NCBI GenBank assembly: GCA_022826725.1
Contig: JAJDUF010000010.1
Coordinates: forward strand, 310,001-374,000
DNA length: 64,000 nucleotides
Direction of reading: 5' to 3'
From: Chloroflexota bacterium
Lineage (GTDB): Bacteria; Chloroflexota; UBA11872; UBA12225; JAJDUF01
This document shows positions 18,562 to 23,519 of the stretch, in pieces; positions within the stretch are counted from its first letter, which is position 1, and every line of letters starts with the position of its first letter. The position numbers and the translations under genes were made by a program. The notes under the pieces were generated by a model. That model searched no databases, was not told the origin of the DNA, and saw only the letters and a program-made list of their open reading frames with translations.

Positions 18562-18602
18562 CCGTCCCCCGCCGCAGCGGGCGGACCATAGGGAGGCCAT
18601 CA
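18562..18602. repeat. dispersed GC-rich palindromic repeat, family B, abutting the 3' end of the RM gene
   Basis: CCGTCCCCCGCCGCAGCGGGCGGACCATAGGGAGGCCAT matches 10343-10380. Confidence 0.65.
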
Positions 18603-21600
18603 TACCGCCGGCAGCGCCTTCACAATCTCCACCGTGCGGACGCTGACCGTCGTCACGCGCTTCACCAGGTCCAGGATGTAGCGCGGCTCGCCCTGCTCCG
18701 CACACCAGTCGTTCGGATCGTTGACGATGCCGCTCGCCTTGTGCGTTCGCACCTGATAGCGGTCAAGCAGCCAGTCCAGCGCCGAGCGGGAGCCGAGCTG
18801 GTATTCGTGCGCGGCTTCCGGGATGCCGGTCAGCATGATGCCGGCGTTGTAGATAATGCGCGACTTGTCCGGGTGAGCACGCCGCCCGGCGTAGCTCATC
18901 TTCTCGACGCGGTATGCGCCGGACGCCTCCGCATCCCAGCCATGTACCCATAGCTCCTGCAGCGGCCACGGCTCGACCGTCTCGTAGTTGACGTGCAGGT
19001 CGGCCAACTGGCGGCCGGCCGCGACAAAGGCCCGGAAGTCGTCCCCGGAGGCCGCCATCGGAATCCGCGCGTGCGACTTTTGCAGATCGTTGGCAAAGGT
19101 TTCTCGCCACTGCGGCGAGTGGAGCACCCCGTAGGTGTAGTAGAACAGGTCGTCCTCGGTAATGGCTTGGTCGCGGTAATGCACCCGAAACTCATCCAGC
19201 GCATCGGAATTTATGTTGCTGATTCGAGTTAGCGCCGGGGACTGGTCGTCAAGCGCTAGTTGGGGGCCGGCGTCAGCACTATGGCCGGGGACATAGCGCC
19301 AGCGGGAGAAATAGCCGGTATTGCCAGTGGTCTGCAAGTCAGGTATGTTGCGCGTCATCAAGGTGTGGAATGGGGTACTCAACCCCAATCCTGTGAGGCA
19401 GATGCCAAGGTTTTCAGTATCCGGGCTAGGGTAAATCTGTGGGAGTTCTCTGATCATGTCGATCAGTTGCCGATTGAAGTACAGGTGCTGCTTGAAGAAT
19501 GGGCGATACGTGCTGATGGCAAAGCTAGAGTGATCCGCGGTATACGGTACTCCGTTAGCCAGGTCACGATATTTCTCCCGGGTCCAATGGAACTGCCGCT
19601 CATCTTCGGTAGCGAACGCCTTGGCCGCTCTGCTGCGTTCCGTGAGCTTACCCACGGGTTTGGTGTTTAGGAATCCCACCACTTGGGCATTGTAAAAATC
19701 CACACTCCTCTGGATACTTGCCTGTAGCTGCCGCTCTGATGAGGCGTAGCACCAGGCATCGCGGTTGGTTGCTAGCCCTAGTGTCCGCCGGTTGAATATG
19801 GGCGCAAGTCCGACACGCTCACCGGCACCGTTGTCCGCAGCCAGAGGACGGAGGTTTGGAAAGGCGTCATTACGCTGACCTATCCAGTCGTGGTGCCGGT
19901 CGGGTATGATAGTCTGCCAGTCAGTAGTCGCCAATCGGGAAGCAGCCAAGACTTCCAGCTTTTGCTCGCGGCTCAGGTAGTCGCCAATGTCGCGGTAGTA
20001 GATGGTGGCGCCCGGCGCCTCGTCACTGCGGCGGAGGCCGCAGTCTAGGTCTCCGGCCGGGGCCTGGGTTGCGGCCTCCGCCGCAACGACGGATGAGGGG
20101 GACGGCGTGGTGGCGGGGCCGGGCATTTTCACCAACAGCAGGATGGCGACACCGGCCCGGCTGCCGGAGCCGAATATCTTGCCGCCTTCCTGCTTGGACT
20201 TTTCGCCGGCGGTTCTTTGGTCGCCGCGTAGGTTGAAGCAGTAGATGGCATGAAACTCCTCGGCAATCGCCTTGCGGAAGCCGTCGAAGGCATTGGACTC
20301 GATAAATCCACCGTTGGTCACGAAAGCGACAACACCGCCCTCGGCGCTACCCTGCACCCGGTCGGAGGCCTGAAGAATGGCTTTGACATAGGGGTCGTAC
20401 AGAGGATTAAGGTTCTTTGTCTTGGAAGGTTCCGCGTAGCGTTTCGTCACTCGGTTGTCTATGGTCGGATACGCGCGGTTGTTATTCCTTGACTAGGGCG
20501 GATTGCCGATGATGACGCGAATATCAAGTTTCCTTTGCCGCTCGATCCGCTCGTCGTTGCGTGGGAAAAGGGTTTCGACCAGGGGCGGCTCTTGCTCCGC
20601 CGCCTGAAGCGTATCGGTGAGGGCGATGCCGTTGAACGGCATGTATTCCATCGCGTCGGCGAGGTCGTGGTAGGTGGCCTCGATGTTGATGGCGGCGATG
20701 TAGTAGGCCAGCAGGAGCATATCGTTGGCGTGTAGCTCCGTTGCATACTTCCGCTGCAAGTCCTCCGGCTTGATGAGGCCGCTCTGTAGCAGGCGGGTGA
20801 TAAACGTGCCGGTGCCGACGAACGGGTCCAGCACATGGACCCCCTCGTCGCTGACCGAGACACCGAACTCCCGCTGCAGTACGTCCTCGACGCTGCGGAC
20901 GATGTAGTCCACCACCTCAGTCGGCGTATAGACGATGCCCAGCGACTTGGCAGTTTCCTTAAGCGCCAGGCTAAAGAACCGCTCGTACAGTTCCTTGATG
21001 ATTTGCTGTTTGCCCTCGGCATCGTTGACGCCCCGGGCACGCAGGCGCACATCCCGGTAGAAGCTCTCCAGCCCGGCGGTTTCCTTCTCCAGGCCGCGCT
21101 GCTCCAGACTGTCGAGCGTACTCTGCATCGCCTGGGATACCGGGTTATGCGTGGCGAAAGCGTAATCCTCGAACAGCGCATCAAATACCGGCTTGGTGAC
21201 GAGGTGCTGCGACAACATCCCGATGGCGTCGTCCTCAGTGATGCCGTCATTCAGGTTGTGCCGGATACCGGTGAGAAAGCGATCAAAGAGTGGCCGTACT
21301 CCAGCAGTGGGATTGTTCAGCAGCGACCGGATACGGGCCTCGTGCCGCGCAGCAATGTCGCGGATGTTCGTGGCCCATTTCTCCCAATAGCCGGGATCGG
21401 CGTACTTATCCACAATCTTGGCCAGGATCGCGTCCCGCAGCGCCGAGGAGCCGGCGATCAGGAGCGTGCCTTGGATCAGCTCCTCCTCGCTGTCGGCATC
21501 GGCGCCGCCGTCCCTGCCAATGCCCTGCCTTTGACCGTATGGCGGCGCCGCCGCGTGTCCAACGGTCAAGGCCAGTTGGTTGATCTTGGCCTCGAAGCGG

Positions 21601-23519
21601 TCGTCATGGGCGCTAATCGCATTGATAACCTGCCAGACGGCCTTGTAGTCACTGCTGCTGACCGTCTCCTGCGCCGTAGCACCGGGCGCCTGCGCGATGG
21701 GCAGGATGATATAGCCGCACTTCTTGTCACCCGCTCGGCGCATCACTCGGCCCACGGCCTGCACCACGTCAATGTCCGACTTGCGCGGATGCAGGAACAG
21801 GATGGCATCCAGCGCCGGCACGTCCACACCCTCGGTCAGGCAACGCGCATTGGTCAAGACATGGCACACGCCCTGCTCCGGCTCCCGCCGCAGCCAGGCC
21901 AGGCGCTCGGCGCGGTAGAGCGCGTTTTGCGTGCCGTCAACGTGCTCCACCTTGCAGCGCAGGCGGTTTCCTGTGCCGGGCCCCGATCCGGTATCGGCAC
22001 TGGCGCCGGCGGCGGTGATACAGCGGTCAATGACCTGGGGGAAGTACTTCGCAAAGTCCTTGGACTCCTGGATTCTGTTACTGAAGGCCACCGCCCGCTT
22101 GGCCGGCTGCGGGTCCGCACTGAAGTCAACGCCCGGCGCAGCCCGTTTACCGAGACCATTCCAGCACCCCACCATGCGGGCGCCGTTGTCCATATTGACA
22201 TCGGTCGCGGTATCGGAAAGTAGCTCGTTCAGGTCCATACCGACCTGTTCTTGGTCCACGTTGAAGATGATGACCTTGTATGGCGAGAGAATTTTCAGCT
22301 CGATGGCTTGACCAAAGCCGAGCCGGTGGAACTCCGGTCCGTACTGGCTCTCGTCATCCATGGACGCGACGGTGAGCTGGCTTTCGTTGGCCTTGCGCTT
22401 GGCCCGGTCGCCGTAGATACGCGGCGTGGCGGTCATGTAGAGGCGCTTGTGTCCGGCGATGAACCCGTTATCGTGAATCCGCTGGAACCCGGACTAATTT
22501 TTGCCAACTAGGCTCACGCCCGTCGTGCGATGCGCCTCGTCGCAGACGATGAGGTCGAATGCCGGAAGGCCGAATTCGCGCTGTGCCTTGGACACCACGT
22601 CCAGCGATTAGTAGGTGGAGAAAATCGCCGTCATCCGCCCGGCGCCGTTAGCGTCGCTGGCGTGGTTGAATCGCTCCACGAGCACCTCCGGGTCCGTGGA
22701 GGAGTACTCGGTTAGGTCGTAAGGCGAGATGTCCTCGTCATCGCGGCTGCGCTGCCCGGCGCGAATATCGGAGCAGACGGCGAGGGGTTTGAGCGGCAGA
22801 TCGGCGTCGTTGGCCCAGTCAATGAGCGACTGCGAAAGCAACGATATGGACGGCGTGAGGAACAGGACGGTGCCGCCGACGCCGGCCACTTGCTCGGCGA
22901 TCCGCAGGGCGGTGAAGGTCTTGCCGGAGCCGCACGCCATAATCAGCTTGCCGCGGTCGTGCTCCCGGAAGCCGGTGACGGTCTTGTCGAGGGCGGTGTG
23001 CTGGTAGTCACGCAGCGTCTTGGTCGGCCGCCGCTCCATATCGGCCGGGCGGTCGAGGTCGAACGTCCGCCAGTCTATGGACGAGTGCTCGAATACGTCC
23101 GGCCCCCAGCGGAGGACCGGCTTGTCCCGGTCTCTGAGTGCGTCCTCGGCGTTGTCCGTCCAGTCATGGGAGGTAGAGACGATGATGCCGCTGGCGAACT
23201 GCGTCGTCCCATAGGCACCGAGGAACTTGTTGGCCTCTTCCCGGATCAACCGATGACCGGAGGTATAGAACTTGCACTGGATCGCCACCAGCTGACCGCT
23301 GTCCCGTTCCTCGGCAACGAGGTCAATGCCAGTGTCGGGCCGGCCAGCGTTGCCGGGCCAGTCGGTCCAGTGCCACACGCGGCGAAAGCGCTCCGACTGC
23401 GCCTTGTCGCGCTCCAAGAACGCCTTGACCAAGCGCTCGAAACTCCGGCCTTGCGCCACGTTGCTTTGGGCGCTGGCGGCCAGCTCATCCAAAACGTCGC
23501 GGAACGTGCGGGCGGCCAT
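18600..23519 (-). pseudogene. Type ISP-like restriction-modification enzyme (Mrr-like nuclease, SF2 helicase, N6-adenine methyltransferase, TRD), interrupted by 3 in-frame stops
   Basis: ORFs 22608..23519, 20493..22436 and 18600..20450 are collinear in the same frame; motifs DTGIDLVAEER..VAIQCKFY, ACGSGKT, DEAH, LDPFVGTGTFITRLL, VIIGNPP*. Confidence 0.85.
20021..20092. repeat. REPIN-like inverted pair inside the RM gene, 72 nt, in frame
   Basis: CGTCACTGCGGCGGAGGCCGCAGTCTAGG...CCTGGGTTGCGGCCTCCGCCGCAACGACG. Confidence 0.75.

Follow-up and report, generated by a model that had tools for sequence, protein, structure and literature searches.

We report a Type ISP restriction-modification gene of a Chloroflexota bacterium that has kept the location it occupies in a sister species and that has, with a probability we put at about 0.85, recently become a pseudogene in this lineage. 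The gene lies within a stretch of 64,000 nucleotides (the window, to which all coordinates refer unless otherwise indicated), where translation of the minus strand from position 23519 to 18600 gives 1640 codons with exactly three internal stops and a final TGA. The locus is the remnant of a Type ISP restriction-modification gene and not a working member of the family, in which a single uninterrupted polypeptide is the rule and here is broken by the three stops (Table 1).

The three pieces belong to one Type ISP frame

An Mrr nuclease, an SF2 helicase, an ISP coupler, an N6-methyltransferase and a Type ISP specificity domain follow one another in this order within the one frame. Domain membership was established by Pfam matches over the cut-off on the three pieces and on the intact orthologue from another genome in this genus (L009), the matches on the pieces including Mrr_cat_2 (9.8e-35), ResIII (1.1e-12), ISP_coupler (8.8e-47) and Type_ISP_C (1.9e-98). 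A previous reading of the same DNA, made from the sequence only, had placed three open reading frames in one frame, with TAA at codon 304 and TAG at codons 342 and 1009, and had assigned them to a Type ISP enzyme. The ORF list and the translation gave the same frame and the same stops, and the assignment agrees with the domain matches and with the intact syntenic orthologue described below. Alignment to LlaGI and LlaBIII, which that reading had proposed, places the pieces in order along one continuous protein, as does comparison with the 1644-codon frame of L009. The frame had also been described as free of frameshifts; we likewise found none, yet the description overlooked a 96-bp in-frame insertion (considered in the last section). 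The third stop falls on the residue that ends the adenine-methyltransferase motif NPP(Y/F/W).

Table 1. Features of the Type ISP locus and its upstream neighbour, with positions in the window.
Feature	Positions	Strand	Remarks
Upstream neighbour, DUF4838 protein; order identical in L009	23603..25498	-	Pfam DUF4838
Type ISP restriction-modification gene remnant	18600..23519	-	1640 codons, one frame, TGA end
Mrr-family nuclease domain, residues 38-158	23046..23408	-	Pfam Mrr_cat_2
In-frame stop 1, TAA, codon 304, within the N-core of the helicase, following FSTY	22608..22610	-	
In-frame stop 2, TAG, codon 342, shortly past the DEAH box	22494..22496	-	
Open stretch: helicase C-core, ISP coupler, first half of the N6-methyltransferase	20496..22493	-	Pfam Helicase_C, ISP_coupler, N6_Mtase; LlaBIII 3.8e-171
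In-frame stop 3, TAG, codon 1009, residue 4 of the NPP(Y/F/W) catalytic motif in the methyltransferase	20493..20495	-	
Open stretch: second half of the methyltransferase, Type ISP specificity domain	18603..20492	-	Pfam Type_ISP_C; LlaGI 1.7e-106
96-bp in-frame insertion, no stop inside	20022..20117	-	Absent from L009 and L010

Relatives carry intact genes and sense codons at the stop sites

In L009 (G001:C4), the nearest relative, the orthologue stays open over 1644 codons until the contig ends. It is syntenic with the gene studied here: ahead of both lie a DUF4838 protein and a protein assigned by eye to the enolase superfamily. A more distant relative from the Dehalococcoidia (L010) has an intact Type ISP gene as well. 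At the positions of codons 304, 342 and 1009, L009 and L010 alike encode Gln, Glu and Trp, respectively. The sequence-only reading had held each stop to be one substitution away from a plausible ancestral codon; the kinds of residue it expected were those found, but at codon 304 two bases separate this gene from either relative. Two further substitutions specific to this lineage, H to P at codon 61 and I to T at codon 63, adjoin the conserved GID aspartate of the nuclease (GRHDIGID to GRPDTGID), and the gene may have been disabled earlier, before the stops arose. Since LlaBIII likewise has D-T-G at the site of the I to T change, that substitution may be harmless. No relative of the gene was found among viral contigs.

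Synonymous divergence from the sister was about 0.12-0.26 per 100-codon stretch in the first 700 codons, reached 0.36-1.2 over codons 700-1500 and fell again at the gene end, and the flanking genes gave values of 0.25-0.31. The strongly divergent methyltransferase/specificity half, which the sequence-only reading had also overlooked, would fit an exchange of the specificity domain; Type ISP enzymes combine a conserved first half with a variable methyltransferase C-half/TRD (PMC4872093).

The inactivation is probably recent

To date the inactivation, substitutions were polarised with L010 as the outgroup. Synonymous and missense changes numbered 142 and 105 in the lineage studied here vs 108 and 80 in the functional sister lineage (Fisher p = 1.0), and the ratio of missense to synonymous changes therefore showed no overall signal of relaxed selection. 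Because this ratio is the same as that of the functional sister, the gene appears to have worked for most of the branch. The substitution count also contains five ‘nonsense’ changes, a figure that includes stepwise artefacts, the real stops being three. With a neutral expectation of about 20.6 missense changes per nonsense change, a joint fit under a simple model places 19-102 of about 250 substitutions (median 54) after the inactivation. Decay would thus be recent and not instantaneous, spanning roughly the last 8-40% of the substitutions on the branch. Three nonsense changes accompanied by neither a clear missense excess nor a frameshift are a somewhat tight combination, which is acceptable only if the inactivation covers a limited part of the branch. 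The recent inactivation suggested by the sequence-only reading is thus upheld by the intact syntenic orthologue, the unchanged missense to synonymous ratio and the domain matches.

In LlaGI and LlaBIII one polypeptide recognises the site, methylates adenine, and translocates and cuts unmethylated DNA. Judging from its domains, the ancestral protein would have been a single polypeptide of this kind, and a stop gained ahead of the methyltransferase would have cost the protein translocation, cutting, methylation and recognition in a single step. Since one chain does everything, the known architecture suggests that such a loss would be safe for the cell, its unmethylated sites being left uncut. 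Later nonsense mutations would then pile up neutrally. We infer this order of events, and likewise the absence of any active fragment. A selective advantage in losing a toxic nuclease could account for the first stop only, because later stops are neutral in a gene that is already dead. Overall, this is ordinary gene loss and involves no new way of reading stop codons.

Alternative explanations for the stops

The doubt that remains about the pseudogene concerns sequence quality, the stops being those of the assembled sequence. The genome is apparently metagenome-assembled and may mix strains, and if the stops were consensus or assembly errors the gene would be intact. The absence of a missense excess on the lineage would fit such errors, as would a contamination estimated at 5.34%. 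Against this, three unrelated substitution errors would have to fall in one gene, codon 304 is two bases off both relatives, and a contig of 530 kb together with a completeness of 96.7% favours a good assembly. As a control, 464 kb of this genome was compared with 800 kb of the sister, and the 97 coding-like ORFs common to both (28,840 residues) contained no other confirmed gene with an internal stop and no frameshift that we could see. The internal-stop candidates remaining in the control are short putative frames of roughly 100-180 residues; the two larger candidates, a solute-binding protein (L157) and a QueC-like gene (L173), were rejected as further pseudogenes, the stop in each case lying upstream of the real start. 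We consider it unlikely that the stops are errors.

The pseudogene is also to be weighed against explanations in which the stops are real and the gene still yields an active product. Were the stops read through or recoded, a low level of full-length enzyme could be made and a dangerous nuclease thereby dosed, and both the purifying pattern of the retained frame and the TCN serine codon that follows each of the three stops (22605-22610, 22491-22496 and 20490-20495; naive chance about 1e-4, calculated post hoc) would accord with this. But the Gln, Glu and Trp of the relatives fit no single decoding: three different residues at three stops mean that no single codon has been reassigned. The intact relatives, moreover, have no stops at these sites, and the one stop in another relative (L109) sits elsewhere and has no serine next to it. 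None of the 47 tRNA genes of the genome, whose anticodons were read, has an anticodon that pairs with UAG or UAA, and both TAG and TAA serve as normal terminators: of the 253 long ORFs counted over 464 kb of the genome, 109 end in TGA, 102 in TAG and 42 in TAA. A tRNA-Gln(ttg) called by ARAGORN at 53966-54058 was taken as a false positive, being without Rfam support. Genome-wide recoding is ruled out by the tRNA set, the stop usage and the relatives, there being neither one consistent residue in the relatives nor a matching tRNA or terminator depletion, and recoding of the three stops is very unlikely, in line with the last place that the sequence-only reading had given to recoding and readthrough. 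Readthrough or recoding as a whole we regard as highly improbable, and the specific form in which the shared TCN serine serves low-level full-length expression that doses a self-toxic nuclease as more improbable still. Also highly improbable is a split enzyme, in which the fragments are separate functional proteins: they are long and have usable start codons near their beginnings, but they are separated within the helicase N-core and within the methyltransferase catalytic motif and not at domain borders.

Comparison with known Type ISP systems

The gene resembles those of LlaBIII and LlaGI (PDB 4xqk, 5ffj) in the order of its nuclease, helicase-like ATPase, coupler, methyltransferase and specificity domains, in alignments that span all of its pieces, and in a conserved first half joined to a variable methyltransferase C-half/TRD. 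It differs from them in its three stops, in a 32-residue REP-encoded insert and in the substitutions adjoining the nuclease aspartate. A sample of 400 genomes of the phylum yielded no more than five full-length Type ISP genes, plus one that is apparently cut by a contig end. Another of these, from a genome of the same class (G020, L109), has an in-frame stop too, although this is a single, independent TAA (L109:1756-1758) in the nuclease domain, the rest of the gene being open; it is conceivable that a restart at a GTG there would give a product that lacks the nuclease and still methylates. A literature search for pseudogenised restriction systems returned nothing close. The locus is a clean and roughly dated case of the loss of a single-chain restriction-modification system, with an intact sister orthologue and a strongly diverged specificity half, and it extends the known set of proteins with REP-encoded insertions by a restriction-modification gene. 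It changes no principle, both the family and the type of repeat insert being known.

An in-frame REP dimer in the methyltransferase domain

The 96-bp insertion is an inverted dimer of CGTC-tagged REP elements, at 20021-20046 (+ strand) and 20066-20091 (- strand), and encodes 32 residues, spacer and edges included. Its two inverted copies match the element CGTCRYTGCGGCNNNNGCCGCARYCC with 0 and 1 mismatch, and the insertion forms a strong hairpin (z -4.4). CGTC-tagged REPs are defined by a CGTC end, a stem of 8-9 bp and a loop of 4-5 nt (PMC3733652), and the element found here has the CGTC end, an 8-bp stem and a 4-nt loop. Exact copies number 46 genome-wide vs 0 for a reversed control, as befits a dispersed multicopy element. 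REP dimers inside genes, and groups that encode 20 to 30 residues, have been reported, as have examples such as RPE-4/RPE-6 of Rickettsia (PMC3733652); the insertion shares with the palindromes of that report the CGTC end, the inverted dimer and the in-frame position within an ORF, and differs from them in lying in a broken restriction-modification gene and in encoding 32 residues. When placed by the alignment to LlaGI and the loop limits given in PMC4872093, the insertion site corresponds to a predicted turn or loop of the methyltransferase domain, past its last recognition loop, so that the insert may have been harmless. Keeping the frame as it does, the dimer could have been inserted either before or after the inactivation.

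Two other repeats were observed in the window. Just downstream of the Type ISP gene, a palindrome-rich 147-bp unit is present in two direct copies that are 75% alike (17903-18196), and direct 300-bp copies that are 79% alike (6983-7282 and 7572-7871) lie shortly after a tRNA-Met gene.
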